DNA from: Corynebacterium marinum DSM 44953
GTDB taxonomy: Bacteria; Actinomycetota; Actinomycetes; Mycobacteriales; Mycobacteriaceae
DNA: 64,000 nt
Direction: 5' to 3'
Assembly (NCBI RefSeq): GCF_000835165.1
Contig: NZ_CP007790.1
Location: 992,001 to 1,056,000 of the forward strand
Positions 390 to 16,850 of this stretch are shown here, piece after piece (positions within the stretch are counted from its first letter, which is position 1; the number at the start of each line of letters is the position of its first letter). The notes beneath the pieces are model-generated. The model saw only the letters and a program-made list of their open reading frames with translations. It was not told the DNA's origin and did no database searches. Position numbers and translations under genes: made by a program.

Positions 390-413
390 GAGTGATTAGA
401 GGAGAACCTGAAA

Positions 414-1619
414 ATGGGCAACACGAGTCTCACCACCGCTAAGCGCAACAAGAATGATGAGTTTTACACGATGTATCCCGACATCGAGCGCGAGATGGTG
501 GCCTACTGGAACTTCAACAAGAATGTCTTCCGGGACAAGGTCGTACTATGTCCTGCCGATGATCCTGAGTGGTCCAACTTCCGGAAGTTCTTTGCAGATG
601 TGTTCGAGGAGTGGGGACTCAAGAAACTGATCTGTACCAGCTATGCCCCGCGGTCGAACCAAGATGCGTTGTTCGCTGTGGACATCGTTGAAGAGCGGAA
701 TGATCCAAAGTACGACCCGAAGCTGTCCGAAGAACGTGGCCGCGTCTTGGTGCTGGAGCGTGAAGATCTCAACGATGACGGCCGGATCGACCGTGCTGAT
801 ATGAAGTGGGAATACCTCGAAGGCGACGGCGACTTCCGAAGTGCAGAAGTTACGGCGCTGCGTGATGAAGCCGACATAGTCGTTACCAATCCCCCTTTCA
901 GCTTGTTCCGGGAGTTCCTCGCCTGGCTGGAGGACGGGGGCGTGCAGTATTCGATCATCGGAACGATCAATGCGACGACGTACAAGGAGACCTTCGCGCT
1001 GATTCGTGAGAACAGACTGTGGAAGGGCGCTACCGCCAATAGCACTGACATGATCTTCCGAGTCCCGAAGGGTGCTGAAGTTAAAGCTGATGACCGGGCG
1101 AAGGCGATTCGAATGCTCAGGAAGATCGGCGGTCAGTATGCCGACCTCCCAGACGACGCTGATTTCACGCGACAGGGTAGCTCGTGTTGGTACACGAACA
1201 TCGATCACGGCGTTCGTCACGAATGGCTCGAGCTTGACACGATGGAGCGGAATCAGACTAAAAGAAATGCGAAAAAGAAGGTGCGGGAGCACGGATACCT
1301 GAAATACGACAACTATGACGCGATTGAAGTCCCTTTCACGGATGCCATCCCTTGTGACTATGACGGCGTGATGGGCGTTCCGACGACCTTCCTCGATAAA
1401 TACAACCCTGATCAGTTCGAGGTAATTGGTACGACAGAATCGAACGATCCAGAGAACCCCTGTCGAACTCGCTGGTACTCATCAGAAGAATGTCGAGCCG
1501 CATATCTAGACAGATTTGGTAAACCAGGGTCTTATGACTTAAATGCTTCCGGCGTTGTCAACGGTGTGAAGGTTTTCAAACGGGTGCTGATTCGTCGTCT
1601 AAACGGAACGGAGGGCTAG
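414..1619 (+). CDS. Adenine-specific DNA methyltransferase, EcoRI-methylase family
   Basis: This 401-residue protein should transfer a methyl group from S-adenosylmethionine to the N6 of adenine in a specific DNA site. The N-terminus carries a NKNDEFYT segment typical of M.EcoRI-like enzymes. A VLCPADDPEWSNF stretch (about 44-57) suits the SAM-binding region, and the catalytic NPPF motif is at residues 159-162. The start has a strong ribosome binding site (AGAGGAGAA). The stop is 3 bases before the next gene, a DUF262-HNH protein, so the two are almost certainly co-transcribed and probably form a modification-restriction pair. Base use is clearly less GC-rich than in the core genes, which suggests recent transfer. 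The recognition sequence cannot be read from the sequence. Confidence 0.88.
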   Translation: MGNTSLTTAKRNKNDEFYTMYPDIEREMVAYWNFNKNVFRDKVVLCPADDPEWSNFRKFFADVFEEWGLKKLICTSYAPRSNQDALFAVDIVEERNDPKYDPKLSEERGRVLVLEREDLNDDGRIDRADMKWEYLEGDGDFRSAEVTALRDEADIVVTNPPFSLFREFLAWLEDGGVQYSIIGTINATTYKETFALIRENRLWKGATANSTDMIFRVPKGAEVKADDRAKAIRMLRKIGGQYADLPDDADFTRQGSSCWYTNIDHGVRHEWLELDTMERNQTKRNAKKKVREHGYLKYDNYDAIEVPFTDAIPCDYDGVMGVPTTFLDKYNPDQFEVIGTTESNDPENPCRTRWYSSEECRAAYLDRFGKPGSYDLNASGVVNGVKVFKRVLIRRLNGTEG

Positions 1620-1622
1620 ATT

Positions 1623-2882
1623 ATGAAGACGACGCTTTTGACGGACACTACCGTCGGTGAGATTTTGTCCGGATTCGAATGGGACGCTATCGAGGCTAAG
1701 GGTCTCTACGGATGGGACGGGGCACTCACAATCCAGCCCGAGTACCAACGTAACTATGTATATGGACTCGATGGAGGAGCCAAAGAGGCCAAAGTAATTG
1801 AGTCTTTGCTGAATGAGTATCCACTGGGATTGCTCTACTTCGTCCATGATCCAAAGAAAACCGATCACCCTTACGAGGTTCTCGACGGGCAGCAGCGAAT
1901 CACGAGTGTGGGCCGGTTCCTGCAGGGGCAGTTCTCTGTCCTGGTGAATGGCTACGAGAAACGATGGGCGAGCCTGGACCCAGCGATTAAGGATCAGATC
2001 CTCAATGCACGTCTGCTTATCTATGCGTGTGAAGGCACTGAGACTGAGATCAAAAGGTGGTTTGAGACCATCAACATCGCCGGTGAACCGTTGACCAGGC
2101 AGGAGTTGCGCAACGCGGTTTATGCTGGTCCCTTTGTTACTGCTGCGAAGCAGGTGTTCAGCAAGACCAATAACAACAAGCGGTTGGAACGCTGGCTTGA
2201 GTGGATGCCGTTCAAGGCTGAGGATGCGACACGTCAGCGAGTGCTGGAACGAGCTCTGGAATGGGTAAGCCTCTTAGATAGCTCCGAAGAGGAGGATGCC
2301 GACCGTCGCGTCAACCTCTACATGGATGAGCACCAGGAAAGTGATGACGTGAGTCAGGTCATCAATCATATGAACACGGTGATTGACTGGGCTGAGTCAT
2401 TGTTCCCTTCGGGCGGGTCGCCCAAGCTGAAACTCTCTACCCAGGACTGGCATAGTTTGTGGAGCCAGTATCGTTCGGTGGTTGGCAGCGGCACCAACGC
2501 CGAGATGACGGCCGATGAGTTTGAAACAACGTGCTTGAAACTCCTGGCTGACGATGAGATTAAGGGGGAATCAGGGATCGTTGAGTTCGTGCTCGGAGGT
2601 CAGACAGACCATCGTCTCTTGAACCTGCGCGAGTTTGAAAATGTGGTCAAGAAGCGTGTCTACAATCGGCAGACGCATGAAGCTAATTTGGTTGACGTAT
2701 CGAATTGCCCTGACTGCGTGAAATACCCCGAAAATCGAAACGATGCCGGTACAAAGACCTGGGCTCTCAAAGAGATGGAAGGTGATCACATCAAACCATG
2801 GTCGCAGGGCGGTAAAACTACCGAGGATAACTGTCAGATGTTGTGTAAACGGCACAACAATGCCAAGAGTAATATTTGGTAA
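1623..2882 (+). CDS. DUF262 and HNH endonuclease domain protein, putative restriction partner
   Basis: A 419-residue protein with an N-terminal DUF262 (ParB/sulfiredoxin-like) domain, shown by YQRNYVYG near 41-48 and DGQQR at 88-92, the motif used for nucleotide binding or hydrolysis in GmrSD and SspE-type proteins. The C-terminus is an HNH nuclease: CPDC at 362-365, DH at 388-389, N403, C404, C408 and H411-N412 give a zinc-supported beta-beta-alpha-metal fold. It starts 3 bases after the EcoRI-family methylase and shares its lower GC. I infer a restriction nuclease controlled by the state of modification. Whether it cuts unmodified DNA (type II-like) or modified DNA (type IV-like) cannot be told here. 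Confidence 0.85.
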   Translation: MKTTLLTDTTVGEILSGFEWDAIEAKGLYGWDGALTIQPEYQRNYVYGLDGGAKEAKVIESLLNEYPLGLLYFVHDPKKTDHPYEVLDGQQRITSVGRFLQGQFSVLVNGYEKRWASLDPAIKDQILNARLLIYACEGTETEIKRWFETINIAGEPLTRQELRNAVYAGPFVTAAKQVFSKTNNNKRLERWLEWMPFKAEDATRQRVLERALEWVSLLDSSEEEDADRRVNLYMDEHQESDDVSQVINHMNTVIDWAESLFPSGGSPKLKLSTQDWHSLWSQYRSVVGSGTNAEMTADEFETTCLKLLADDEIKGESGIVEFVLGGQTDHRLLNLREFENVVKKRVYNRQTHEANLVDVSNCPDCVKYPENRNDAGTKTWALKEMEGDHIKPWSQGGKTTEDNCQMLCKRHNNAKSNIW

Positions 2883-2963
2883 TTAAGTAATCTCCCTGGA
2901 ATTACTCACTGGCGATGGGATTACGTCCTCTAAAGGTCTTTGAACGCGCAGGCACCGTTAGCA

Positions 2964-2987
2964 ACGGGGCCATCTACCTGGCCCCGT
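2964..2987. terminator. Hairpin between convergent genes
   Basis: Perfect 8-bp stem ACGGGGCC/GGCCCCGT with an 8-base loop, lying between the convergent DUF262-HNH gene and the lipoprotein gene. There is no T-tract on either strand, so it would be a GC-rich bidirectional terminator of the kind common in actinobacteria. Confidence 0.5.
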
Positions 2988-2996
2988 CCCCCGGCT

Positions 2997-3641
2997 CTAC
3001 AGCCCCTGAATCTGGTCAGCGGAGAAGGACCAGCGTCCTCCTGACTGTGTTTCCGTCAGGCGCAGTTCCTCGGTGCCGACGGGCAGGTCAGCGTAGTGGA
3101 CATGTCGGACGGTGTCACCGACACGGATCCTGCTCGACCAGTGTGTTTCTTCCCGCGGCTCAGCGCACCACGTAGACCCGTCCAAAGGCTGGTTGATGCC
3201 GTCCGCGGTCAGCGCCGACCAGTCCGACCACACAGCGAAAGTACTGGGGTCATAGTCGAAGTCGGAGGGCTTCGTCTTGATGAGCACCGGGATCCTCAGC
3301 AGCTGGGTGTCCGCCGGCTGCTCGTTGTATGCACTTCCCGGGCAGCTATCCAGGATTTCCAGTGCCTCCACGGTGAACAGGACCGAGCAGTCCCCGTACT
3401 CAAGGCAGTCGAACCCTGCTTCCTTTCCCACAGCCGCCTCACGGACCCCCTCACCGGGTGTCATCATCTCCGTATCCTCCGCTGCGCGCGTTTCTTCCGC
3501 AGACGTCGACGGATCACCCGTCGAGTACGTGGTCGTGGCCTCGTTGGGCGAGCTGCCGGTGTCAGCACTGTCCGCGCTACAGGCACCGAGAGCGAGCGAC
3601 AGGGCAACAGCGCCGGCAACCAGAGGTGTCGTGATCTTCAT
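2997..3641 (-). CDS. Putative secreted lipoprotein
   Basis: A 214-residue protein with an N-terminal export signal (basic MKI, hydrophobic core) ending in a lipobox LGAC with the acylated cysteine at residue 21, followed by a Ser/Thr/Glu-rich linker of about 45 residues. The mature part has four cysteines (GFDCLEYGDC, DSCPG, STWCAEP) and no motif I recognise. It is predicted to sit on the outer face of the cytoplasmic membrane. It lies between the two restriction modules, on the same strand as the type III-like pair but about 100 bases downstream of it, so it may be cargo of the island rather than part of either system. The function is unknown. Confidence 0.7.
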   Translation of the reverse strand: MKITTPLVAGAVALSLALGACSADSADTGSSPNEATTTYSTGDPSTSAEETRAAEDTEMMTPGEGVREAAVGKEAGFDCLEYGDCSVLFTVEALEILDSCPGSAYNEQPADTQLLRIPVLIKTKPSDFDYDPSTFAVWSDWSALTADGINQPLDGSTWCAEPREETHWSSRIRVGDTVRHVHYADLPVGTEELRLTETQSGGRWSFSADQIQGL

Positions 3642-3743
3642 GAGGGGTCATTCCTTTCAGGAGTACGCGGCTCTATCAGGGGAAACAGCGAATCCCCGGA
3701 GCCTGTGCATGTCGCATACTACAGACATGCCGCACATGCGTCC

Positions 3744-6284
3744 CTACAGGTTCGAGTGCCAGTTCGACAGCCGCTCATCCTGGAACAGGGCCTCGACGCT
3801 AACCTGCTCCGCGACCAGGGCCTCCTGAACGCGAGCGTCCTTGTGGTCGATAGCACGCAGCGTCTCACCAACCCGGGCAATGGAGTCGATGCGCGAGTAG
3901 AGGTGACCGTGCTGCTTCGCATAGGCCGACAGCCCCCGCAACTTGGGCAGGGCATCGGTCAGGTGAGTGCCGTGCGGGTCGATGATCGACACCCCGACGT
4001 CATCGCCGGAGCGGGAGAAGACGAGGAAGTCCGGACGCAGAATCGCCTCCGACCCGTCCTCCCGCACCCACGGCACACCCAGGGACTCCCGACCGGAAGA
4101 CGACGGGTTGCGGTACCAGCCGACCGTGAAGTCATGAGCCAGCTCCGCCTCGATGACCGTCTGCTCCCAGGCGTTGAGCTGCACCGGGGCCTGACCGTGG
4201 CTGTCCGCCAGCAGGTGCTTGGCAAAGGTCGGCACCGGCACCTCCGACGAGCCGCGCCCTGCGACCAGGGAGGTGGGAAGACTCAGCCCGACCGGCTCGG
4301 GACGATCCGACATGAGCCGGATCGCGTCGTACTTCTCGCGCAGCTCCGGCCGGGTGGTGATCCGCGCCCGGTTCTTCTCGTACAGGGTGGTCACCTGGGC
4401 ACGTGCCGCAGCGTAGACGGCGTCGACAATCCCGCGGATGCTGGCAGCGGCGGAAATCGTCGCCACGGCCTGACGGATACCCTCCTCAAGTCCCTCCGGG
4501 GCCTGGCTGTCATGGACGAGCAGATACTTCACATAACGGTTCGCCAGCTCCGGGAAGACCCGCTTGGCACCGGAATACGCAGCGTCCACCGCCGCGGCAT
4601 TGGCACGCCGGCTGCGTGTCGTGCTCCGGGTCTGGCCTGTCATCCGGTCCACGAAGGTGGTGTGCACATCGACGTGCAGAACGTCATGGAGGGCCGCATC
4701 GAACTCCTCGCGGTGTGACTCGATCTCAAAATCGACCACCCGGCACAACGCGGCGTTGACCTCGGCAAAGGGCGCTACGTCGGGGAAGTCGATGGCCAGC
4801 TGCGAGGCGAGCGTGTACATCCGGGTCAGCGGGTGACGCTGCACGCCCGGCAGACGGTAGCTCGGCAACGTCTCAAGAACCTCGACCACCTGATCACAGT
4901 CCTCGATGTGCTCGTTGCGGGTGAGCGTGACCGGGTTGAGGACGACGTCGCGGCCCGGGATCTTCTCTCCCGTTTCCGCGTCGACGGAACCGTGTTCGAG
5001 TCGCTGGACGATGCTGTCCAGGGTGTCCGCGTCGAACCGGGGCAGGACCGCGAACGCCGCATTGAGCACATCGTCACCGTCAATCCGACGGGCAAGCGGA
5101 GTCCGCAGCAGCCGACCGATGAGCTGGGTGATGTAGGTGTGCTCCGCGGCGGTCTTCAACGACACGAGCACCTCCGCCCGCGGGCAGTCCCAGCCGGTGG
5201 TCACCGCCTCCTGGACGAGCAGGACACGGACGTCGTTGGCGTGCTGCACGGAGGTCGGCGCGATATAGGGCACGCGGTACCGACCCAGATCCCACTCGGT
5301 GTGCGTCTGCCGGGCATGTGCGAAGGAGCCGGCGTGAAGGTCGGGGTAGGTGGTGATAAGCGCGTCCATGAGGCCGGCAACCTCATCAGGCTTTGGTGTG
5401 GCGGGCAGCTGCAAGACCATAAGCGGAATGACCACACGGTCCCCGGTACGTCGGCTGTGCTGCTGCCAGGCACGGGTCACCTCCTTGAGACGCTCCGCAC
5501 CGAGCTGGACGAAGCTCAGATCATAACGCCCCTCCTCGCCGCGGGTATCGAGCACTATGGTGTCCTTGAGCAGGCCGGATGCCTGAACCTCCTCGACCGG
5601 CACCTCGACGGCCTTGACCGGCAGGCGCTCACTGGTGCTACGCATCGCCTGCTCGAAACGCTCAGCGGTAGCCGACATGCCGAGCACGACGGGCATGGCC
5701 GGGGCCTTCCCGTGACCGTTGATCAGCCGGGAGACGATGGTGTCAGAGTCCTTGCCGGCCGCGGCCTCCCGCTGACCCTGGTGGGCCTCGTCCACGACGA
5801 ACAGCAGATTGGTGTCCGGGTCAGCCAGGGTGTTGTCGAGGATGTCGTAGATCGTGTAGCCGGTGTTATCGCCCTTCTCCCGGACCAGGTGGTTGCCTGC
5901 GCTGAGCTTCTGGGCGTTGAGGAGGTAGACGTGGCCGGGGTCCAGGCGGGCCGCGGAGAAGTGGGAGTCGATGATCTTCACCCGCCCGTTGAGCACCTCG
6001 GAGTGGGCTTCGAGGCGCTCGCGGGTCTGACGGTTAAGCTCCGGGTCATGGGAGAACCAGAGGACGACGGGGCGGCTCACCGGAGCCAGGTCGTAGTCGG
6101 GGGATCCGGCGACCAGGGCCTCGAGGACAGCCGCGGCGATAACGGTCTTGCCGGCACCGGTCGGGGCGATCAGCGGGATGGAGGTGGTGACCTTGGCGGA
6201 ACGGTAGCGGTCGAAGGCGGTGGTCACTGCCTCAAGAGTGGCGCGGGCGGCGGTGTGCTGGAAATCGAATAGGTCGAGTTTCAT
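3744..6284 (-). CDS. Type III-like restriction helicase/nuclease subunit (Res)
   Basis: An 846-residue superfamily 2 helicase. Visible motifs are Walker A PTGAGKT (41-47), DEAH (165-168), MSATAERF (about 204), TTGWDCPRAEVLVS and the arginine-finger region QLIGRLLRT. The C-terminus has an RPDFLVF block that resembles the start of a PD-(D/E)xK nuclease, but the expected acidic-x-Lys strand reads SIIDPHGTH, without the usual lysine. It lies 11 bases downstream of the methylase gene (6296-8401) on the same strand, as in type III res genes. It should translocate along DNA and, if the nuclease is active, cut it when unmodified sites are met. An alternative is a helicase-only defence or regulatory role. 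Confidence 0.8.
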   Translation of the reverse strand: MKLDLFDFQHTAARATLEAVTTAFDRYRSAKVTTSIPLIAPTGAGKTVIAAAVLEALVAGSPDYDLAPVSRPVVLWFSHDPELNRQTRERLEAHSEVLNGRVKIIDSHFSAARLDPGHVYLLNAQKLSAGNHLVREKGDNTGYTIYDILDNTLADPDTNLLFVVDEAHQGQREAAAGKDSDTIVSRLINGHGKAPAMPVVLGMSATAERFEQAMRSTSERLPVKAVEVPVEEVQASGLLKDTIVLDTRGEEGRYDLSFVQLGAERLKEVTRAWQQHSRRTGDRVVIPLMVLQLPATPKPDEVAGLMDALITTYPDLHAGSFAHARQTHTEWDLGRYRVPYIAPTSVQHANDVRVLLVQEAVTTGWDCPRAEVLVSLKTAAEHTYITQLIGRLLRTPLARRIDGDDVLNAAFAVLPRFDADTLDSIVQRLEHGSVDAETGEKIPGRDVVLNPVTLTRNEHIEDCDQVVEVLETLPSYRLPGVQRHPLTRMYTLASQLAIDFPDVAPFAEVNAALCRVVDFEIESHREEFDAALHDVLHVDVHTTFVDRMTGQTRSTTRSRRANAAAVDAAYSGAKRVFPELANRYVKYLLVHDSQAPEGLEEGIRQAVATISAAASIRGIVDAVYAAARAQVTTLYEKNRARITTRPELREKYDAIRLMSDRPEPVGLSLPTSLVAGRGSSEVPVPTFAKHLLADSHGQAPVQLNAWEQTVIEAELAHDFTVGWYRNPSSSGRESLGVPWVREDGSEAILRPDFLVFSRSGDDVGVSIIDPHGTHLTDALPKLRGLSAYAKQHGHLYSRIDSIARVGETLRAIDHKDARVQEALVAEQVSVEALFQDERLSNWHSNL

Positions 6285-6295
6285 GGCGGGGAGTC

Positions 6296-8401
6296 CTAGT
6301 CGTTGGCGATCTTGAAGGTGGTCAGGTAGTCCTCGTAGAGACGCGTCGAGGCGACTCCTGGGGGAAGGTGGTCGTTGACCTGCCGGAAGGTGGCCTGGCT
6401 GTCGGTGATGACGAAGACGTGCCTAAGGTCAGGGCGGTCCTTGAGGTTGTCCAGGAAGGCCGCGGTCTGGTCGGTATCGCGCAGCACGGCATAGGTGTCG
6501 GTCGCAGCCCATCCGTGGTCAGGAATCTCGGTGATGACCTCGCCTCGGGAACCGGCCTTGAGCCAGAGGGCGGGGGCGACTTTGGCGAAGGCGAGGTCGT
6601 GCTGGATAGCGGCGGGGGCCTCGTAGGTCAGCGTGAAGAAGTTGACGCGGCCGGCGGTGGGGTTCGTGTACGGGGTGCCGTCGACGCGGGTGCCGGTGAG
6701 GATCGTTTCGATGCGCGGCTTGGTCACATGCCGGTAGACCCCGTGCTCCTCCCACTGAGGGTCCCCTGGGCGCAGGCCGTCCTTACGCAGCTGCTGTGCA
6801 TCCTTGTGGTTAAGTTCGTTGTTCGTGACGAGGATGCAGGTGCGCTCCGAGGTGGCGTTCTCCTCATTGAGGCGCAGGACGGCCTCCATCGTGGACCCGG
6901 AGCCGCCGAAGAAGTCGAGGATGACGCCGTCGCGCGGGGTCATAAGATCCAGCCACTCCATGAGGACGGTGTGGTCCTTGGGGTAGGGGAAACGCGCGTC
7001 AGGGAACACGCCGCTGTCGTTCTGCGGGTAGTGCAGGTGACGGGTGCCGTGGGTGCGCTGACGGTCGAAGACGGACAGAGCGACCTGGCCGGTGACACCC
7101 TCCAACGGGCGCTTCTCACTGATCGGATCCGTGTGGTCTTCCCGGAACAGGATCCGCCCCTCAGCGATCATCTGCCGCATCCCGTCCTCGGTAGAGCGCC
7201 ATCCCCTGCTGGGTGCAGGGACCGGGAGGTTAGTCACTGGGTGAAGAACGTCGTAGCGGAAACCGTTGCCGCCCGGCGCGGAAATATCCCCGTCACGCGC
7301 CAGGGCTCCATCAGGGAGGAAGTAGATGTTTCGTGCCATCTTCTTCTCCGGAGCGTCCCCGGGAAGGGACTTGAACCAGGCCCGCATCAGCGCCGTAGCT
7401 TTCTCCTCGTCTCCGCCGGCCTCCTCCCATGCCTTGCGGCCCTGGGCCAGGACGTTGTCGACACCCGGCTTGGGAACCCGCCACTTCGCACCGCGCTCCT
7501 GAATCTCGTCCGCGCGGATCGTGGAGACACTGGGAGCTTCCTTGAGCGGCACGCCCGGCTTCGACCAGGTCGAGAGGTTCTTCGCGTAGGCGAGCATGTA
7601 GTCCGCGCCGTTGGAGATGAAACGCGCGTTGTTCTTCCGTCCGCCCTGCCAGACGACGCTGGAAATGAAATTGTGCTCCCCGAACACCTTGTCCATGAGC
7701 ATGCGGAGGCGGTGATGCTCGTCGTCTCCGATAGCCACGACGATGACACCGGTCTCCTTGAGCAGGTCGCGGGCCAGGGTGAGGCGGCGGTCCATGAAGC
7801 TCAGCCACTTGGAGTGCCGGAAAGAGTCGTCACCGGAGACGTAGCGGTCGTTGTAGATCCAGGAGTTTGAGCCGGTGTTGTAGGGCGGGTCAATGTAGAT
7901 CGTGTCCACGGATTCGCGATGGGTGAAGCCGAGCATGCGGAGGGCGTGGGAGTTCTCGGCGTTGATGACCGCGTGCACCGGTTCCTTGGTATCCTCCGTG
8001 TCGACCTGCCCGTCGAGGCACAGGCCGGGGTAGACGGTGTCCTTGTAACGGGCCACGGCCACGACGTCCTTGCGGGAGGCGGTGACCGTCTCGATGACTT
8101 CCCCGCCGGCCTCGTCGGTGTCCGCGCCCTGATTCTCAGGGGTCAGGAGAAACTCGTCGTCGGAGACCTCAACGACCTCGTAGACGTCCGGCTCCGGCTG
8201 GGTGGTCGAGCCGCGGGGCGGGAGGATGCGGACAAAGGAACCCTCCTGGACAGGCACCATCGGCATCTCCACGGCCTCGGGTAAGTGGTCCTCGAAGACC
8301 AGCCCAAAGGAGGTGCGTTCCTTGATTGCCGCGGCCAATTCCCGTCCGAGAGCGGGGTCGAGAGCGCGTGCCTGGGAGAGAAGGTCGTCAATGCGTGCCA
8401 T
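6296..8401 (-). CDS. Type III-like adenine DNA methyltransferase (Mod)
   Basis: A 701-residue beta-class N6-adenine methylase with DPPYNTG at 171-177 (catalytic motif IV) and FGGSGST (SAM-binding motif I) much later, the permuted order typical of Mod subunits. The first 120 residues and the last 150 or so are less familiar and probably carry target recognition and Res contact. The gene is first in a two-gene operon with the helicase gene 11 bases downstream. Its upstream region is a 305-base divergent spacer shared with the recombinase-like gene. The modification should protect the host from the Res partner. The target sequence is unknown. Confidence 0.85.
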   Translation of the reverse strand: MARIDDLLSQARALDPALGRELAAAIKERTSFGLVFEDHLPEAVEMPMVPVQEGSFVRILPPRGSTTQPEPDVYEVVEVSDDEFLLTPENQGADTDEAGGEVIETVTASRKDVVAVARYKDTVYPGLCLDGQVDTEDTKEPVHAVINAENSHALRMLGFTHRESVDTIYIDPPYNTGSNSWIYNDRYVSGDDSFRHSKWLSFMDRRLTLARDLLKETGVIVVAIGDDEHHRLRMLMDKVFGEHNFISSVVWQGGRKNNARFISNGADYMLAYAKNLSTWSKPGVPLKEAPSVSTIRADEIQERGAKWRVPKPGVDNVLAQGRKAWEEAGGDEEKATALMRAWFKSLPGDAPEKKMARNIYFLPDGALARDGDISAPGGNGFRYDVLHPVTNLPVPAPSRGWRSTEDGMRQMIAEGRILFREDHTDPISEKRPLEGVTGQVALSVFDRQRTHGTRHLHYPQNDSGVFPDARFPYPKDHTVLMEWLDLMTPRDGVILDFFGGSGSTMEAVLRLNEENATSERTCILVTNNELNHKDAQQLRKDGLRPGDPQWEEHGVYRHVTKPRIETILTGTRVDGTPYTNPTAGRVNFFTLTYEAPAAIQHDLAFAKVAPALWLKAGSRGEVITEIPDHGWAATDTYAVLRDTDQTAAFLDNLKDRPDLRHVFVITDSQATFRQVNDHLPPGVASTRLYEDYLTTFKIAND

Positions 8402-8706
8402 GGGAGAGTGTCACCTTTACGGGGTCGATACATAAATGTAGAAAGAGACACTAGCTGATTTTCGAGTAGGCAAATGTCAAGTCGTTCGGTAGGCGAATGG
8501 CAGGCATTGTCGCTTGCATGTGCTAGATCAATGTCCCCATGTGCAGGGAGAAGCTGACGTTGCAAAAACCGCTTGCATCTTCCCTCCCGGTGATACATGA
8601 TTAGCGTTACTGGATGTTAAAAGAAACATCGTGTTTGGTCACCGTCTCCCTGGTGGCGCTCGAAGCCTGAACCCCCGTTGACTCCCGCAACTTGGAAGGT
8701 TTCCCC
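8402..8706. promoter_or_regulatory. Divergent promoter region between mod and recombinase-like gene A
   Basis: No gene is seen in these 305 bases. A TTGACA hexamer on the minus strand (8475-8480) could be the -35 of the mod promoter. An inverted repeat GATGTT-N6-AACATC (8613-8630) lies about 80 bases before the recombinase-like gene and looks like a dimeric-protein operator. The Shine-Dalgarno for gene A is GGAAGG at 8694-8699. Confidence 0.4.
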
Positions 8707-9675
8707 ATGTCAACTCCATATTTTGTCTCCCGGTACCGACCAGCACCGGAAACCGTGTCGCCCCGCCGGTGGGCGGATGTCGCTGACTTCTCCCGTAACG
8801 CAGTTCTCGAAGCTGTCGACATCGAGCACTACAGCGACGACCAGACCCGCGCCTACTTGGGTTATGTTGCGCGCCTGGCCTCCTATGTCCACCACATCTG
8901 CGGCCGACCCCTGACCTACGAGGACGTGTTCACGCAGGCAGCGGTGCATAACCTCTTCGAGTTCCACGTCGATGCCGGAGCCCGGGCCAGAGGCTCACGC
9001 CGCTCCATGCTGGAAAGTGTTGGCCGCTACCTCAATCCCGCCGGCTTCCCGCTCGACGTCGAGGTTCGCTACGGCTATGAGCCGCCGGCCGGTCCCTATA
9101 CGCAGGCTGAGGTGCGCGCCCTGCATGAGTGGAGCCGCAGTCAGGGCGACGCAGGGCGTAACGCAGATGCACGCATGATCCTTGCTCTGGGGCTCGGGGC
9201 GGGGCTGCGGGCATCGGAGATCATGTCCACGGTCGGTTCGCACGTCACGCGCGAAGGTGAAGCTGTCATTGTCCTGCCTCGCGGCTATCGGAATACCGGC
9301 CCGCGGCACACGGTGGTCACCGCGGATTTCGAGGAAGATGTCCTGCGCCGCGCCGAGCAGGTGGGTCAGGACGGGCACCTCTTCCGCCCGGACAGTGAGA
9401 ACCGGACGACGTCGGTGCTGACGACCTTCATGAAACGCACCCACGCTGACCGGAGGATCCGCCCTGACACGCGCCGGCTCCGGAGCACCTGGATCGTGGA
9501 CCACATTCTCGAAGGGCTGCCGGCCGCGGTCATTGTTGAGATGGCAGGCCTCGCTGACCTCCAGCACTACCGGGCCTGGGTTCAGCGCGCCGGGGCGGAG
9601 CGGGCATCGCTCTACGTCGAACGCAGTCGAAGGCTCGGACAGGTGCACGGACTTCCGCCGGAGAGGAAGGGGTGA
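8707..9675 (+). CDS. Tyrosine-recombinase-fold protein A, degenerate active site
   Basis: A 322-residue protein. I start it at ATG 8707, which has GGAAGG 8 bases upstream, rather than at the in-frame TTG at 8692. The layout is that of a tyrosine recombinase: an N-terminal helical DNA-binding half, then the catalytic half beginning near PYTQAEVRAL. GLGAGLRASEI holds the first catalytic arginine and RRLRSTW the second. The usual histidines are replaced (His of HxxR by Arg, His of LGH by Leu in AGLADLQ), and the tyrosine position aligns with Trp in HYRAW. A tyrosine three residues earlier is shared with protein B. It may be inactive, a DNA-binding partner, or use a shifted nucleophile. It is part of a module with protein B and a DDE transposase. 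Confidence 0.7.
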   Translation: MSTPYFVSRYRPAPETVSPRRWADVADFSRNAVLEAVDIEHYSDDQTRAYLGYVARLASYVHHICGRPLTYEDVFTQAAVHNLFEFHVDAGARARGSRRSMLESVGRYLNPAGFPLDVEVRYGYEPPAGPYTQAEVRALHEWSRSQGDAGRNADARMILALGLGAGLRASEIMSTVGSHVTREGEAVIVLPRGYRNTGPRHTVVTADFEEDVLRRAEQVGQDGHLFRPDSENRTTSVLTTFMKRTHADRRIRPDTRRLRSTWIVDHILEGLPAAVIVEMAGLADLQHYRAWVQRAGAERASLYVERSRRLGQVHGLPPERKG

Positions 9676-9952
9676 GCCTCATGGGCCAATAAGGGGCATA
9701 AACGTGGCGTTGTGAGCAAAAGGCATTTATCTTTCAATAGTCGTAGATAAGTTTCCATGCATACTGAAAGACCAGATCAGAGATGTTTTTGGTGAGGAAG
9801 GGGTGAAATATAGGGGTAATTATAGTATTTACTAATGGATTACCACGGAAATCTGCAAAAGATGATCCAATACGTCCATGCAAAAACGACCAGCTCAGGA
9901 CCGCGATCAGACCACTCTCGAATCAGGGGAGGGGTGGGCGAGTGTTACCCAC
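9676..9952. other. AT-rich spacer between convergent genes
   Basis: No gene is seen. The region is noticeably richer in A+T than its surroundings. It contains an imperfect inverted repeat, CTTTCAATA (9731-9739) with TACTGAAAG (9762-9770), 8 of 9 paired, which could end transcription of recombinase-like gene A or be a protein-binding or recombination site. Confidence 0.4.
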
Positions 9953-10279
9953 CTATTCCAGATCCCCGAAGCCAAGTTCATTCGGACTGGGCCACAGACT
10001 GATTCCCAGCTCGACTTCGAGACGGGCAATAGTCATCGAGTCGAGGATGCTGTCGCCTCTGAGGGCTTTCTGCAGGATCGCGTGATTCATGTCGATTTCC
10101 GCCGCAAAGCTACGCACACTGCCCCGGCCCCGCATCGGGGACTCGAGGATGACGTAGCGGAGGTTCAGCGTCAGCTGCCGGAGCTTCTCGAAGACCGGGT
10201 CAGGGACCGGAGTGTCGGGCCAGTCCGGGAACAACTCCCGGGGAGTCTCACGGGCAGGGCGGCCGATGGGCTTGGACAT
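9953..10279 (-). CDS. Small helix-turn-helix (XRE-like) protein
   Basis: A 108-residue frame, which I start at ATG 10279. Residues about 53-98 (SFAAEIDMNHAILQKALRG then SMTIARLEVELGISLWP) have the spacing of an XRE-type helix-turn-helix: a helix, a turn, a recognition helix and a closing helix with a Leu-Trp-Pro end. The N-terminus is proline- and arginine-rich. It is divergent from recombinase-like gene B across a 120-base spacer that carries an 11-bp inverted repeat, so it is a good candidate regulator of the mobility module. The plus-strand frame overlapping it is a 5' extension of gene B without a ribosome binding site, so I prefer this gene. No exact family is recognised. Confidence 0.6.
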   Translation of the reverse strand: MSKPIGRPARETPRELFPDWPDTPVPDPVFEKLRQLTLNLRYVILESPMRGRGSVRSFAAEIDMNHAILQKALRGDSILDSMTIARLEVELGISLWPSPNELGFGDLE

Positions 10280-10304
10280 GCTGTCGACCCTACTTCCACG
10301 GCGT

Positions 10305-10369
10305 CGGAATCCACCGCTCGCCGCGAACTGAATACCCCCGTTCATCGGGTCATTTACGGGTGGAATCCG
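10305..10369. repeat. 11-bp inverted repeat in the divergent spacer, candidate operator
   Basis: CGGAATCCACC at 10305-10315 is exactly mirrored by GGTGGAATCCG at 10359-10369, with 43 bases between. The two arms lie between the divergent helix-turn-helix gene and recombinase-like gene B, so they may be operator half-sites for looping repression, or binding/crossover sites of the recombinase-like proteins. Confidence 0.5.
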
Positions 10370-10399
10370 CGGAATATTGACCAGAAGGGATGGAGAATT

Positions 10400-11179
10400 G
10401 TGAGGCCGAAGACCATTGAGATCCTGGAATGGTTGCACACTGAGCGCAGCTGGGGTGCCAAAGGTCTTAGCAGTATCCGTGGCTACATAGCCACCTTCCT
10501 CCTGCATTGCCACACCCGATTCGATGCAGAGCCGGACATCTCACTTTTCCGTCCTGACATGCTCGAGAGCTACTTCACGGAGCGCCGCGACACAGCGGAC
10601 GCCCGCCAACGCCTGACGTTCATCTCCGAGCACTTCTACCCCGAACTCTGGGAACGGGTTGGTCCTCGCCAACGTCAGCACAACCCTCCCTACACCGCAG
10701 CGGAGGACCGGGCATTTCTCGAGTGGGCACGCTCGCAGTCCACCGCGGAACGCCGCCACTACTGCACTCTGATCCTCGCCCTGGCACGGGGTGTGGGGCT
10801 GCGGGCGCAGGAGATTGAGGGGCTACAGGCCGACGACGTCCTGGTCACCGGAGACGGTGTGTATGTCGAGACGGGCAGACTCCGCGGGACCGATGCCGTC
10901 CTCGTGCCGGTGGCGGAGCCGTTCGCGGGCATCGTGGCAGACGCCGCACGGGGCGCGCTCCCGGATACCCGCATCAGCAAGCCGGGCCAGCAGCGACTGA
11001 GCGTCTACCTGCGCCGCGGTAAAAGCGTCCACGGCGGCGTCCCCCTCCTCCAGCGGCTGCGCAACACCTGGGTGGTGGAACGTCTCCGGGAGGGCATGGA
11101 CGAGGACGTTATTTCGCGCTGGGCGGGTTTGAGCCATGTCACCGACTACCGGGACTGGGCCGCGGACACACAGTACTAA
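10400..11179 (+). CDS. Tyrosine-recombinase-fold protein B, degenerate active site
   Basis: A 259-residue protein, which I start at GTG 10400 because a purine-rich AAGGGATGGAGA precedes it; the frame stays open upstream only across the antisense helix-turn-helix gene. The N-terminal helical part is followed by a catalytic-fold half from PYTAAEDRAFLEW. GVGLRAQEIEGL holds the first catalytic arginine and LQRLRNTW the second. As in protein A, the HxxR histidine is missing (Gln), LGH reads AGL, and the nucleophile position aligns with Trp in DYRDW. The YRxW pattern is shared by both proteins, so they are paralogues. Its stop is 50 bases before the DDE transposase-like gene, which suggests one operon. 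Confidence 0.68.
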   Translation: MRPKTIEILEWLHTERSWGAKGLSSIRGYIATFLLHCHTRFDAEPDISLFRPDMLESYFTERRDTADARQRLTFISEHFYPELWERVGPRQRQHNPPYTAAEDRAFLEWARSQSTAERRHYCTLILALARGVGLRAQEIEGLQADDVLVTGDGVYVETGRLRGTDAVLVPVAEPFAGIVADAARGALPDTRISKPGQQRLSVYLRRGKSVHGGVPLLQRLRNTWVVERLREGMDEDVISRWAGLSHVTDYRDWAADTQY

Positions 11180-11229
11180 CAGACGACACCACAGAGCAAC
11201 GAGCAGAAGAAGAGGAGGTGACCAGCGTC

Positions 11230-13038
11230 ATGAGCCGACACGTACAGAAGGCACCCGGTATTCTCGGCCTGTCCCTGGTCACCCCTGAGCACGTCAAAGT
11301 CGCACTCCAGGTGGTCGAAGCAGCCGGAGTCATGGAGCTGTGGGAACAGTGGCGCCGCGAGGATGGCTACCGCGATGCCCGCCCCGGCCGGCCCAAGGAG
11401 GTGGACGAGAAGACCATGCTCGTCCTGTTCATTCTCCTGGCTATCGAGGGGTCGGCGCTGCACATCACCCGGGCACGCGACGTCATCGTCTACCGCGCGA
11501 CCCCTGAAGCCCTTGCCATGCTCGGCCTGCCGCAGCGTGACGACTGGAACTTCTGCTGGCACGACGAGCTGCGTGACCGCCGCTGGGATAATCGCCTCTA
11601 CGCGGCCCTCCGCCGGCTGATCGCACCACTTGACCTCTACCCGGATAACTCCTACGCCCGGCGCTACACGAAAGAGGAGTTCGCTCAGGTCGAGTCCGCG
11701 CGTGACCCGGAACTGATCGCACAGCGCCGCCGTCGCAGCCAGGAGTTCTACGGCCCCATTCTCATGGAGTCCGCGAAACTGCTTGGCACAGACTTCTCCC
11801 GCTGGACCGGGGACATCGTGGTCGACGGCACGCCGATCCCGGCCTCCGGCACCGGTACCGCTGCCCGCTCCACGCGGGTATCGAGTGAGCCGGACGCGGG
11901 ATGGTACCGCCGCGGCGGCGACCACAACGGTGACGACGCGAACGGACGCGAGGCGATTTTCTGGGCGTTCGAGGCCTCGTTGATCGCCATGTCCGGCAAG
12001 GACTTCGGTAGTAGTGGCTTGCCGGCACCGATCATCGGTCTCTCGCTCGATAAGCCCGGGCACAGCATTTCTGAGCGTGCCCTGGATGCCCTCAGCCACG
12101 TCACCTCTGACCCGTCTACGCCGCGCGGCTTCTTCATCGGAGACCGTGCCTACACGCCCGGTGCCAAGGCGGAGAAGCTCCAACAGCCCATCCGTCAGGC
12201 CGGCTACCGCATTGTCGGAGACCTCTACGAGGAGCAGAAGGGCCAGGTCACCGCCGTCTATGAAGGGGCACAACAGGTCGACGGTTCCTGGTTCTGCCCG
12301 GCCTTACCGGACAGCCTCGTCGGCTTCACAGCCGGTCGCGACAATAAGGCCCTGCTCGATGACCCCGAGGCGCAGCGGATGCTCAAAGAGCGAGACAAAT
12401 ACCGCCTGCGGATCAAGGAGGTCACCCAGGACGGATCGGTGAAGTTCATGTGCCCGGCCCGCGGCCCCGGCGCCACGGTGACCTGCCCTATTGCCTCTGG
12501 TCAGATGCCGGACAAACCGGTACTCGGAATGAAGCGTCGAGGTCCGCGTCTGCGCCCCAAGACAGCAACGCCTCCTGCGACGGGGAAGAAGTCCTCCCGG
12601 CTCACGCTTGTCCCAGAGCAGCTGCCCAAGGGCAGTGCCTGCGGCAAAGTCTGCTCGAATAAGTCATCGCTGACGATTCCCCTGCATGTCGCCTCCAAGC
12701 AGGCACATCAGGGACCGTCCTGGGCGACGAAGGCCTGGGGCGAGGTGTATCACCGCGGCCGAAACATCATCGAGTCCCGTAACGGTCTGCTCAAGAACGC
12801 CTCGGGTGTCGGTATCGGTGATCGCACCGGCCGGCTGATCCGCGGCTTCTCGAAGCAGTGGTTCCTCGTTGCTGCCGCGGCGGTCGCCGTCAATATCCGT
12901 CTGGTTGACGCTTATCTGCGTCGCACGGGACAGGAGCTGACCCCCGTTCCTCCACCGCCGACCCCGCCGGTACGTAAGACAAACCGTGACGCTGAGGCTG
13001 AGCCGTACTGGTCGAACGCGCCTCCCGCTGCCGCCTGA
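11230..13038 (+). CDS. DDE transposase-like protein
   Basis: A 602-residue protein, started at ATG 11230 with AGGAGG (11213-11218) upstream; the earlier in-frame GTG at 11218 overlaps the ribosome binding site. A DDE triad fits: Asp189 in DIVVDGTPIP, Asp295 in FFIGDRAYT and Glu505 in NIIESRNGLL, with the large gap between the second Asp and Glu holding an insertion with Cys398, Cys409, Cys461 and Cys465 that may bind zinc. The general plan resembles IS1182/IS4-type transposases. It follows two recombinase-fold genes on the same strand. I see no convincing terminal inverted repeats at its edges, so it does not look like a simple insertion sequence. It may be a transposase or a domesticated relative working with proteins A and B. 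Confidence 0.72.
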   Translation: MSRHVQKAPGILGLSLVTPEHVKVALQVVEAAGVMELWEQWRREDGYRDARPGRPKEVDEKTMLVLFILLAIEGSALHITRARDVIVYRATPEALAMLGLPQRDDWNFCWHDELRDRRWDNRLYAALRRLIAPLDLYPDNSYARRYTKEEFAQVESARDPELIAQRRRRSQEFYGPILMESAKLLGTDFSRWTGDIVVDGTPIPASGTGTAARSTRVSSEPDAGWYRRGGDHNGDDANGREAIFWAFEASLIAMSGKDFGSSGLPAPIIGLSLDKPGHSISERALDALSHVTSDPSTPRGFFIGDRAYTPGAKAEKLQQPIRQAGYRIVGDLYEEQKGQVTAVYEGAQQVDGSWFCPALPDSLVGFTAGRDNKALLDDPEAQRMLKERDKYRLRIKEVTQDGSVKFMCPARGPGATVTCPIASGQMPDKPVLGMKRRGPRLRPKTATPPATGKKSSRLTLVPEQLPKGSACGKVCSNKSSLTIPLHVASKQAHQGPSWATKAWGEVYHRGRNIIESRNGLLKNASGVGIGDRTGRLIRGFSKQWFLVAAAAVAVNIRLVDAYLRRTGQELTPVPPPPTPPVRKTNRDAEAEPYWSNAPPAAA

Positions 13039-13040
13039 TT

Positions 13041-13063
13041 GGACGACTCGTGGTGGGTCGTCC
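13041..13063 (+). terminator. Hairpin just after the DDE transposase-like gene
   Basis: GGACGAC (13041-13047) pairs with GTCGTCC (13057-13063) around a 9-base loop, starting 2 bases after the stop codon. No T-tract follows, so it may be a weak terminator or an mRNA-stabilising hairpin. Confidence 0.35.
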
Positions 13064-13207
13064 CTGAGGAGCTAATTAAAGAGAATGTCGCGTGGGCAGC
13101 ACCACGGCTACAGGCTGACGCGAAACACCCTGCGAGAAGAACCCTCTCGACAGGGTTACACACCATCCGGGAGTCGATAATCGGGGACCTGGTGGACGAC
13201 GAAAAAC

Positions 13208-13250
13208 GACACCGATCCAGCCTCATTACGAGGACTGATCGGTGTCATTT
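13208..13250 (+). terminator. Rho-independent terminator-like hairpin at the island edge
   Basis: Perfect 10-bp stem GACACCGATC (13208-13217) / GATCGGTGTC (13237-13246) with a 19-base loop, followed by ATTTTCT. It could end transcription from the mobility module before the tRNA gene. The 170 bases before it hold no gene I can support. Confidence 0.55.
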
Positions 13251-13270
13251 TCTGGGGCGCCGGTCAGGGT

Positions 13271-13304
13271 AATAAACCAAGTATGTGCTGGTCAATAAGC
13301 CAAG
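13271..13304. repeat. Direct repeats next to the tRNA 3' end
   Basis: AATAAACCAAG (13271-13281) and AATAAGCCAAG (13294-13304) differ at one base and are spaced 23 bases apart, about two helical turns. They lie 15 bases outside the 3' end of tRNA-Arg, where an integrase arm-type binding site would be expected in an integrated element. Confidence 0.35.
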
Positions 13305-13318
13305 ACCGCCACTTCACC

Positions 13319-13394
13319 TGGTGTCCCCGACAGGATTCGAACCTGCGACCTTTGGTACCGGAAACCAGTGCTCTATCCACTGAGCTACGGAGAC
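13319..13394 (-). tRNA. tRNA-Arg (anticodon CCG)
   Basis: A 76-base tRNA including an encoded CCA end. The acceptor stem pairs GTCTCCG with CGGGGAC, the D arm is GCTC...GAGC, the T arm is GCAGG-TTCGAAT-CCTGT, and the anticodon loop TTCCGGT gives CCG, reading the arginine codon CGG. One mismatch is seen at the base of the anticodon stem. The 3' end faces the accessory island, the usual orientation when a tRNA gene is an integration site. A -10-like TAGACT on the minus strand (13432-13437) lies 38 bases upstream. Confidence 0.95.
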
Positions 13395-13431
13395 ATCGCG
13401 GTCATCCCTCAGCGGGGATGACAACGGTGAA

Positions 13432-13437
13432 AGTCTA
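13432..13437 (-). promoter_or_regulatory. Candidate -10 of the tRNA-Arg promoter
   Basis: TAGACT preceded by TGC on the minus strand, 38 bases before the mature 5' end of the tRNA. The -35 is unclear. Confidence 0.4.
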
Positions 13438-13476
13438 GCACCTCCCCGGGTGGGAGTCCCAAATCACCCCGGTTGA

Positions 13477-15072
13477 TCAGCGGTTGACGCCGTCGACGTC
13501 GGTGGTGGCTGTGCGGCCGGTGCGCAGGTACTCCACGACGGCCTCGTCGACGTCGGCGTTGCCCAGCCCGACGTGGCCGTGGCCGTTGCCGTGGACGGTG
13601 ATGACGTGGGCGTCCATGGCGCCGGCGAGGTTGGTGTGGTGGGCGTAGGGGGTCTGCGGGTCGCCGGTGGCCTGGACGAGCAGGGGACGGGTGTCCAGCC
13701 GGGAGCCGTCGACGGCGGGCAGGGCGGCGACGGGCTCGGCGCCCGCACAGGCCGCGCCGGAAGTGAACATCGCGTTGGGTGCGGTGAAGATGTCGCCGGT
13801 GACGTAGTTGGTCCAGGCGTACCTGGGGGCGTCGGCGAGGTTGGCCGGATACTGGTTCTCGTTGCACATGATCAGCCGCTGTATGAACTGGGCGTTCACG
13901 GTGGCCAGGAGCTCATCCTCGGGCATCTGATCGACGAGTGCGTTGAAGTCCGGGAGGGCTTCCGTGCCGTTGATGGTGCGGGCGAGGGTGTCCCATGCGG
14001 TGGCCGTCGGCAGGATCTGGCGGGTGAGGCTCAGGGTGGGGGAGTTCGCCTGGTTGCCGCCGGTGGCGGCCTGGGAGCTCAGCCCCTGGGAGGAGACCGC
14101 GAAGGGGTTCACGGCGTTCATGACGTCCACGCCGGCGCTCTGGGAGGACTCGAGACCGGGCGGGAGGTCGCCGACGCGGGCGGGCGGCGGGACGACGGTG
14201 GGGTTGGTGCCGGACTCGGCGACGATCTTGCGCGACCAGGCCTGGTACACGGCGAGCGGGGTGTCGCCCAGGCCGTAGATGTCGTTGCGCTCGGCGGTCC
14301 AGGCCATGAAGTCGTGGAGGGAGTTCTCGTAGCCGGCCTGCTGGGAGCCCATGATGCCGTTCCAGGCCAGGCCGGGGTCCATGGCGGAGTCGAGGACGAC
14401 ACGGTCGGTGTTGCCGGGGTAGCGGGTGGCGTAGGCGGAGCCGAGGAAGGTGCCGTAAGACAGGCCCATGACGGAGATCTTGTCCCGGCCGAGGGCGTTG
14501 CGGACCCACTCCCAGTCGTCGACGGTGTTGTCGGTGGTCAGGGACGCGGTGTAACCGGGGGTCGCGGTTTCGCAGGCCTCGCGGATGAGTCCGCCCTAGC
14601 GGACGAAGAGATCGACGGGGTTGGCGGCGGCCCGGGCGTTGAGCTCGTCGTTGCAGTTGACCGGGGTGGAGCCGCGCAGGCCACGGGGTTGGACGGCCAC
14701 GCGGTCCCATTCGTCGGTGATGCCCGCCGGCCAGGACATGGCCTCCGGGTTACCGAAGTAGGAGTACGCGTCGCCGCCGGGGCCGCCCGGGTTGCCGAAG
14801 AGGGTGCCCCGCGCGGTGCCGGAGGCGGCCGGAACCCGGACGAAGCCGACGGAGATGGTCGGGCCGGCCGGGTCGGAGTGGTGCATGGGCACGTCGATGC
14901 GCCCGCACTCGGCGGACGGGTCGGCGACCTGGGCGGGGCAGTCCTCCCACGTGATCGGCGGGGCTGATGCAGGGGCCGGGGCGGCGGAGCCCACCGGTGC
15001 CAGCCCGAGCAGTGCGACGGCGGTCAAGGTTGCGGCGAGGGGGCGGGTGAGGGTGCGCATGGGGGAAATCAT
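13477..15072 (-). pseudogene. Secreted alpha/beta hydrolase (tripeptidyl aminopeptidase-like), broken by an amber codon
   Basis: The reading frame would encode 531 residues. There is a signal peptide ([23 protein letters not shown]-rich cleavage region), then a serine-peptidase-type alpha/beta hydrolase with the nucleophile in GLSYG, the acid in ATGDPQTPY and the histidine in GNGHGHVG. A single TAG at 14596-14598 (minus strand) follows VDLFVR. The same frame continues directly with GGLIREACET and stays open to 13477, so one base change, most simply CAG to TAG, explains the break. The family cleaves short peptides or esters outside the cell. The catalytic part has an internal ATG at 14469 just before GLSYG, too late to give a complete enzyme. 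A sequencing error would also explain it. Confidence 0.8.
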
Positions 15073-15189
15073 CTCTTCGGCGGCATGAGGTACGACGAAA
15101 CTTCAGGTCGGGGTACATGCTAACCGGGATCGGCGTGCTCCGGGCGGGTATCGGCCGGACGTCAGTGGGAGGGTCGTGCGTCGGTGCAC

Positions 15190-15195
15190 TAGACT
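15190..15195 (+). promoter_or_regulatory. -10 element of argS, leaderless-type
   Basis: TAGACT ends 8 bases before the argS ATG at 15204, so transcription would start at or very near the start codon. This agrees with the absence of a Shine-Dalgarno sequence there. Confidence 0.5.
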
Positions 15196-15203
15196 TTCTG
15201 CCC

Positions 15204-16850
15204 ATGACACCTGCTGATCTTGCGTCCCTCATCCGGGAGACGGCCACCGGAGTGCTGGCTTCCCGTGACCTCGACACCTCCGTTCTTCCTGATCAGGTCG
15301 TGGTCGAGCGTCCCCGCAACCCGGAGCACGGCGATTACGCCACCAACCTGGCCCTGCAGGTGGCCAAGAAGGTGGGCGCCAACCCGCGCGAGTTGGCGAC
15401 CTGGCTCGCCGAGGCGCTCGCGGCCGACCCCGCCGTCGACTCAGCGGAGATCGCCGGCCCGGGCTTCCTCAACATCCGCCTGGCCGCCGCGGCGCAGGGC
15501 GAGATCGTGGCGAAGATCCTCGAGGCCGGGGAGGAGTTCGGCCACGTGGACAGGTACCAGGGGCAGAAGATCAACCTGGAGTTCGTCTCCGCGAACCCGA
15601 CCGGCCCGATCCACCTGGGCGGCACCCGCTGGGCGGCCGTCGGTGACTCACTGGGCCGCGTGCTCACCGCCGCCGGCGCCCAGGTCACCCGCGAGTACTA
15701 CTTCAACGACCACGGCGGCCAGATCGACCGCTTCGCCCGCTCGCTGCTCGCGGCGGCGAAGGGTGAGCCCACGCCGGAGGACGGCTACGGCGGCGCGTAC
15801 ATCGGCGAGATCGCGCAGGCGGTCGTCGATAAGCAGCCGGACGCCCTGACCGGTTCGGACCCGCAGGAGACCTTCCGCGCCCTGGGCGTGGAGATGATGT
15901 TCGAGCACATCCGCGAGTCCCTCCACGAGTTCGGCACCGACTTCGACGTGTTCTTCCACGAGAACTCCCTGTTCGAGTCCGGCGCGGTCGACCGGGCGGT
16001 GCAGAAGCTGAAGGACAACGGCAACCTCTACGAGTCCGAGGGCGCGTGGTGGCTGCGCTCCACCAACTTCGGCGACGACAAGGACCGGGTGGTCATCAAG
16101 TCCGACGGCGAGGCCGCCTACATCGCCGGCGACATCGCCTACGTCGCCGACAAGTTCGACCGCGGCCACACCCTGGCCATCTACATGCTCGGCGCCGACC
16201 ACCACGGCTACATCGCCCGCCTCAAGGCCGCCGCCGCGGCGCTGGGCTACGACCCCGACCAGGTCGAGGTGATGATCGGCCAGATGGTCAACCTGGTCCG
16301 CGACGGCCAGGCGATGCGCATGTCCAAGCGCGCCGGCAACGTGATCACCCTCGACGACCTCGTCGAGGCCATCGGCATCGACGCCGCCCGCTACTCCCTC
16401 ATCCGCTCCTCGGTCGACTCCTCCCTCGACATCGACCTCGCGCTGTGGGCCTCCCAGTCCTCCGACAACCCCGTCTACTACGTGCAGTACGGCCACGCCC
16501 GCCTCTGCTCGATCGCCCGCAAGGCCGCCGAGCTCGGTGTGACCTACGACGGCGCGGACTTCGCCCTGCTCACCCACGAGCGGGAGGGCGACCTCATCCG
16601 CACCCTGGGCGAGTTCCCGGCCATCGTGCTCGGCGCCGCGGAATTGCGTGAACCGCACCGCGTGGCCCGCTACGCTGAAGAACTGGCGGGTGTCTTCCAC
16701 CGCTTCTACGACAACTGCCAGATTCTGCCCAAGGCCGACGAAGAGGCCGCACCAATCCACACCGCCCGCCTCGCACTCGCCGCAGCCACCCGCCAGACCC
16801 TGGCCAACGCGCTCGGCCTGGTCGGTGTCTCTGCTCCGGAGAGGATGTAA
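15204..16850 (+). CDS. argS: Arginyl-tRNA synthetase
   Basis: A 548-residue class I aminoacyl-tRNA synthetase that charges tRNA-Arg with arginine using ATP in the cytoplasm. I start it at ATG 15204 ([13 protein letters not shown]), not at an upstream in-frame ATG, because a -10-like TAGACT lies just before it and the length then matches known corynebacterial ArgS (about 550). Visible: the N-terminal tRNA-recognition domain, [11 protein letters not shown] (the HIGH-like motif), RMSKRAGN (the KMSKS-like motif) and the C-terminal anticodon-binding DALR domain. lysA follows 4 bases after the stop, the classical argS-lysA operon of corynebacteria. A tRNA-Arg gene lies 1.8 kb upstream on the other strand. 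Confidence 0.97.

Follow-up and report, generated by a model that had tools for sequence, protein, structure and literature searches.

What can two tyrosine-recombinase-like proteins do when the residues needed for cutting DNA have been lost and a DDE (Asp-Asp-Glu) transposase is encoded next to them? This question is raised by four genes at positions 8707 to 13038 of a 64,000-nucleotide stretch of Corynebacterium marinum DSM 44953 DNA (contig NZ_CP007790.1, positions 992,001 to 1,056,000), referred to here as the window. An earlier note, made from the letters alone, described two degenerate recombinases, A and B, with a helix-turn-helix (HTH) gene and the DDE gene, and proposed a new transposition or target-site system, or a domesticated one. 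Judged from sequence comparison, the feature is the right-hand part of a 16-kilobase site-specific bacterial transposon carrying DNA-defence genes. The element, 16.3 kb between inverted repeats, lies with a 5-bp duplication by a tRNA-Arg gene, and its relatives lie at a near-constant distance past tRNA genes or glnA. We consider it quite likely that the DDE protein cuts and joins DNA in this transposon and that A and B select the target without cutting it.

The window holds the element up to position 13310 (1–13310), and the full length is 16,345 bp. An inverted copy of the sequence preceding the tRNA-Arg gene was found 16.3 kb off, beyond the window, by the repeat alone; it places the left end at G000:C1:988966, that is, window position −3034 when the base before position 1 is counted as 0. 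The right terminal inverted repeat (13293–13310) matches the left end at 18 of 18 positions, and ACTTC is present on both flanks, with its right copy at 13311–13315. The target, an intact tRNA-Arg(CCG) gene with an encoded CCA, follows on the minus strand (13319–13394; identified by ARAGORN and from the sequence), its 3′ end toward the element. At the far junction of the window element the repeated sequence is limited to ACTTC, which lies outside the tRNA and adjoins the inverted repeats; a copy of the tRNA 3′ end, the mark of integrase-driven tRNA islands, was not found there.

The site was also compared with a genome that lacks the element, a kind of check that the earlier note had proposed. 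In G217, the same site carries no element and holds a single ACTTC; 20 of the 21 terminal left-flank bases are joined straight to the right flank, where the alignment starts at ACTTC and extends for 2.7 kb at 88%. To the left, two blocks align, one of 7.1 kb at 84% and one of 0.6 kb at 74%; in G217 about 3 kb of other DNA separates them, and about 200 bp by the site align poorly.

Gene A (8707–9675, plus strand), of the alpha type, encodes 322 amino acids; gene B (10400–11179, plus strand) encodes 259 if GTG 10400 is the start, which is uncertain, as the frame is open from 9878. The earlier note had called the two proteins paralogues, and this agrees both with the tree and with a search of the genome with A, which returned B (E 1.1e-17, 35% identity). 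Both show the two-domain recombinase fold and weak integrase matches in Pfam, NCBIfam and PHROGs (best PHROG_1 for A, E 4e-7), but not the catalytic R-H-R-H-Y set of active integrases. As described before, both catalytic arginines are kept (GLRxxE and RLRxTW) and the remaining residues are lost: A has R at the HxxR histidine, AGL replaces LGH in both proteins, and Trp occupies the nucleophile position nine residues after AGL. Among 111 relatives, His occurs at HxxR in one and at LGH in none, Tyr is found at the nucleophile column in 16, and two or more of these three residues are combined in none; the first Arg is kept in 60 and the second in 106. Relatives with an intact set, for which these sequences were inspected, were not seen. 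The YRxW tyrosine is present in A and B but is not conserved among relatives, where this column, six residues after AGL, holds Y in 26, L in 57 and F in 18 of the 111 sequences. Its role as a relocated nucleophile was rejected on this ground.

The DDE gene (11230–13038, plus strand) encodes a 602-residue transposase with the Tn5-like fold of the Tn5/IS4 superfamily. Its acidic triad is real, though it was misnumbered before: counted from ATG 11230, it is D199/D305/E515, ten above Asp189/Asp295/Glu505. Neither D199 nor E515 varies in either alignment, and D305 is invariant in one of them and almost invariant in the other. Tn5/IS4 transposases carry a YREK signature spaced Y-2-R-3-E-6-K; the corresponding stretch here, Y507-3-R511-3-E515-6-K522, is one residue longer, and R511, E515 and K522 are invariant across 16 alignment rows. 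The four cysteines of the insertion exist in the window protein but are missing from some relatives. Nothing significant was found for this protein in Pfam, NCBIfam or PHROGs, its profile had no meaningful match among PDB sequences, and a first scan of genome contigs with the window transposase confirmed no match. The phages searched yielded none either; the plasmids searched yielded six Streptomyces records. The HTH gene (9953–10513, minus strand), a probable regulator of the module, is flanked by A and B and followed by the DDE gene, an arrangement that was correctly described. Its product matches no Pfam family and nothing significant in NCBIfam or PHROGs, and its relatives in loci L035 and L192 match HTH_3. 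A terminator-like inverted repeat (13203–13251; 22-nt arms, 82% complementary) follows the transposase gene, ahead of the right end.

Comparison with other genomes indicates that the recurrence of the module is far beyond chance. Relatives found with the DDE profile occur in 39 of 201 related genomes, in 77 of 242 Corynebacterium genomes and, at class level, in 27 of 394 genomes and 18 of 137 genera, many of the matches being fragments or stop-containing frames. The loci examined are part of these matches: the window and 51 fetched from the genus and order (52 in all), with 15 from the class. Transposase frames of at least 550 amino acids are present at 45 and 13 of them, 58 together. A recombinase-like gene on the same strand, ending at most 1 kb upstream of the DDE gene and overlapping it by less than 300 nt, accompanies 41 of the 45 and 9 of the 13. 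Of the four genes, whose joint occurrence the earlier note had wished to see checked, the HTH gene has phmmer relatives at 12 of the 20 loci that were the first to be fetched. Six of the eight loci that fall short still have a recombinase-like gene, on the opposite strand near the far end of the element in L031 and overlapping the DDE frame beyond the limit in L043, L048, L166, L167 and L171. A DDE gene with no such partner was seen at two of the 58 loci only, too few for an ordinary insertion sequence, the outcome that the earlier note had named as contrary to its proposal.

A tRNA gene on the opposite strand, within 3.5 kb and with its 3′ end toward the transposase gene, is present at 24 of the 52 loci and 12 of the 15, and no plus-strand tRNA gene occupies this position in the 52. 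ARAGORN finds 32 tRNA genes in those 52 loci (1.24 Mb), and 24 of them are the facing ones. The 36 cases cover 13 anticodons and eight amino acids (Ala, Arg, Glu, Gly, Leu, Met, Pro, Ser). The gap between transposase and tRNA genes is 108–281 bp in 33 of the 36, and reaches 766 bp in L100, 1,533 in L031 and 2,915 in L047. In L031 (about 12557–14085) and L047 (about 13890–16477; oriented coordinates in both), other insertion sequences have apparently landed past the transposase gene and before the right end, which would have moved the tRNA gene further off. The right end can be read in 17 Corynebacterium tRNA cases: the window element (WIN), L031, L035, L037, L039–L042, L047, L097–L099, L102–L105 and L110, where L098 and L099 enter this offset count only, through right-end likeness to L035. 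In 15 of the 17, read by eye, the element ends 8 bp from the CCA if this is encoded and otherwise 11 bp from the discriminator base. Outside Corynebacterium the gap is shorter, 1–2 bp before CCA in L043, L165 and L173.

The end of glnA is a second repeated site. Six elements (L044, L045, L106, L107, L109, L125) stop 7 bp past the glutamine synthetase stop codon, and L109 sits there behind an older copy. Additionally, the Corynebacterium element L096 (10144–18585) is inserted in a clustered regularly interspaced short palindromic repeats (CRISPR) array, 6 bp before a repeat. In L192, on Streptomyces plasmid NZ_CP108257.1 (217264–230625), HTH, recombinase-like (E 1e-49) and DDE (E 1e-71) genes lie between two blocks of a CRISPR array; the ends of this plasmid element were read by eye and are part of no count. 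The L192 element adjoins annotated type I-E cas1e/cas2e genes and differs from that of L096. Four loci were left out of the target classes (L032, L046, L033, L034), the draft contigs of the last two stopping about 120 bp past the transposase gene.

Exact 5-bp duplications flank 20 of the 22 elements with called ends (21 of 23 if L102 is included), with 20 different sequences among them. As the duplicated 5-mers differ, specificity resides in the neighbouring gene and not at the cut. Ends were found by the repeat alone for the window element, L037 and L040–L042, and by motif for L039, L097, L102, L104, L106, L109 and L110; ten of these 12 elements have the duplication. For L031, L035, L043, L047, L096, L103, L105, L107 and L125 they come from scans that required it, and in L044 and L045 the right end was placed one base off the repeat register so as to obtain it. 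The end counts leave aside L032, L033, L034, L036, L038, L046, L048, L098–L101, L126 and a sister clade. The newer elements of L037 and L109 each have an older element's right end as their left flank, which means that the same target was used twice. Such tandem insertions, together with the target duplications, the unoccupied site and the presence in one genome of two copies whose transposases are identical, do not bear out the suggestion of a domesticated system. The other half of the earlier proposal, a new transposition or target-site system, fits the inverted repeats, the duplications and the fixed place by tRNA genes. With Tn7-like elements the family shares site-specific insertion beyond a conserved gene, accompanied by a short target duplication.

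These regularities of offset, orientation, ends, duplications and residue loss, as read in the genomes compared, suggest a mechanism. The Tn5-fold protein would bind the element ends and perform both cutting and joining. A, the proposed target selector, and B would bind much like an integrase at its attachment site, but unable to cut; they would recognise the tRNA gene by its 3′ part or, in other lineages, glnA by its end, and would hand the target to the transposase. The latter would join the ends with a 5-bp stagger at a fixed distance from the target gene, which is left intact and so stays available for further insertions. Repression of the module is the probable role of the HTH protein.

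Several observations weigh against this proposal. L039 has no duplication and L040 has one of six bases (AACAAC), while the offsets of L040 (12 bp) and L031 (5 bp) deviate. In the control for the duplication-requiring scan, matches of at least 14/18 arose in 10 of 260 displaced scans. The sister clade, 17 Corynebacterium loci (L049, L050, L108, L111–L124) whose recombinase-like gene overlaps or adjoins the DDE gene, has no tRNA at that place. At L045 (beside glnA) and L174 (beside a tRNA-Ala gene) the transposase frame is long, and a recombinase-like gene was not detected. Finally, discordance between transposase and recombinase trees gained no support in approximately unbiased tests (p 0.155 to 0.44); with selector and transposase co-inherited, the present trees cannot separate their roles in targeting. 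By eye only, several right flanks in the sister clade resemble intrinsic transcription terminators. A separate candidate, the beta-type protein as determinant of tRNA-Arg(CCT) versus tRNA-Arg(CCG), was examined with two copies in C. glaucum DSM 30827, L102 at the CCT gene and L103 at the CCG gene, which share 100% identity in the transposase, 99% in alpha and 83% in beta. It was rejected, as the betas of L103 (CCG) and L039 (CCT) are close in the tree, on short branches, and thus do not sort by target.

The main rival, which we regard as unlikely, assigns recognition of the tRNA or glnA end to the transposase itself, with A and B as regulators (MrpR-like repressors) or as accessory factors binding the element ends. 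Dada elements demonstrate that DDE transposons can be tRNA-specific (PMC3706591), and the two loci lacking a recombinase-like gene would agree with it; but L044, sister of L045, has these genes in pieces, so that loss after insertion is plausible. The sites of this single transposase family are also varied (tRNA genes for eight amino acids, glnA, a CRISPR array), a range more easily explained by changeable selectors. As for repression, two recombinase-like genes and a separate HTH gene exceed the need, though many relatives have one recombinase-like gene. It is far less probable that A and B have kept recombinase activity through some unusual chemistry, in an ordinary tRNA-targeting integrative element with the DDE gene as a passenger insertion sequence. 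The fold and the location at a tRNA 3′ end would suit this, yet the 5-bp duplication lies outside the tRNA, inverted repeats stand at both ends with no copied tRNA end, no relative keeps two of H, H and Y, and the DDE gene accompanies the recombinase-like genes at a set place in element after element. Chance neighbourhood, in which an insertion sequence came down next to two decayed integrase genes at a tRNA hot spot, is refuted by the conserved module: although tRNA genes are common island sites, this set of genes recurs across many Corynebacterium species and in further genera of the class, at a near-constant offset from the tRNA gene.

The proposed selection of the target by A and B, with cutting by the DDE protein, has parallels in known systems. 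Tn7 duplicates 5 bp and, directed by TnsD, inserts at a fixed offset with varied duplications. Tn5/IS4 elements duplicate about 9 bp, and to our knowledge their known members have no target-selector genes and no tie to tRNA ends; the present family shares with them the transposase fold and a long inserted region from the second Asp to the Glu, and differs in its 5-bp duplication. RIT and Tn554 elements are defined by catalytically competent recombinases, which the relatives of A and B do not appear to be. TnsD at attTn7 resembles the present case in insertion just past a conserved gene (PMC2918618), but there, as in a CRISPR-associated transposon (CAST) that homes to a tRNA gene, selector and transposase come from other families. 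That CAST is described as inserting about 30–33 nt past the tRNA, against 8–11 here (PMC10293859). Among the closest systems described is Tn6022, a Tn7-like element whose inactivated tyrosine recombinase TnsF, with zinc fingers and tandem core-binding (CB) domains, selects comM; an inactivated recombinase as selector and insertion at a conserved gene are common to both, TnsF being compared by description only (PMC10293859). According to the same source, Tn6022 uses TniQ and, as Tn7 systems generally, TnsC, whereas the window family has a Tn5-fold transposase, targets tRNA ends and glnA, and shows no recognised ATPase in its smallest element. Tsy elements likewise combine tyrosine-recombinase proteins with an HTH gene at a conserved gene, but the activity of both proteins is reported as essential there, while here it is apparently lost and a DDE transposase is present (PMC10293859). 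Dada transposons share the aim at tRNA genes, with 6–7 bp duplications, but are eukaryotic and of another transposase superfamily, and the abstract mentions no recombinase-like partner (PMC3706591). MrpR/YopR of SPbeta also keeps the recombinase fold for DNA binding without recombination; it is a prophage repressor, and the abstract mentions no transposase (PMC10516654).

The dead recombinase as target selector is therefore a known idea, and what is apparently new is a transposon family in which it is joined to a different transposase and other targets. A search of open-licence PMC papers, with subscription papers and preprints outside its scope, found no description of this family. We lean slightly towards a second, independent form of Tn7-style targeting, in which a Tn5-fold transposase works without an AAA+ ATPase and receives its target straight from dead tyrosine recombinases, which often come as a divergent pair. 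Its sites would be tRNA ends of many isotypes, glnA and, at least now and then, CRISPR arrays. Bacterial site-specific DDE transposition is best known from Tn7-like elements, where an ATPase links selector and transposase; if the proposal is true, a Tn5-type transposase whose fixed address came from retired integrases would achieve this by simpler means. Such a system could also help to explain why actinobacterial defence genes build up at the ends of tRNA genes and glnA, and the reuse of integrase DNA binding to aim other enzymes would become testable.

L035, at 6.9 kb, is the smallest element that combines an intact module with two called ends. Its only other genes are one for an ArsR-type HTH protein and two open reading frames (264 and 102 amino acids) that were not recognised. 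No TnsC-type AAA+ ATPase was recognised among its frames of at least 90 amino acids at Pfam sensitivity, in this one element tested, so no Tn7-type ATPase is apparent there. The two restriction-modification systems carried by the window element may benefit the host. One comprises an EcoRI-type adenine methyltransferase (414–1619, plus strand; PF13651, E 2.5e-109; PADLOC MTase_II) and a restriction endonuclease with GmrSD_N and HNH domains (1623–2882, plus strand; PF03235, PF01844; PADLOC REase_II). The other comprises a type III restriction subunit (3744–6284, minus strand; PF04851; PADLOC REase_III) and methyltransferase (6296–8401, minus strand; PF01555; PADLOC MTase_III). Three open reading frames at the left end, beyond the window (138, 281 and 203 amino acids; L053:17170–19657), have no Pfam match. 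Elsewhere, L040 carries both type III genes, L041 a type III restriction gene, and L042 a P-type ATPase.
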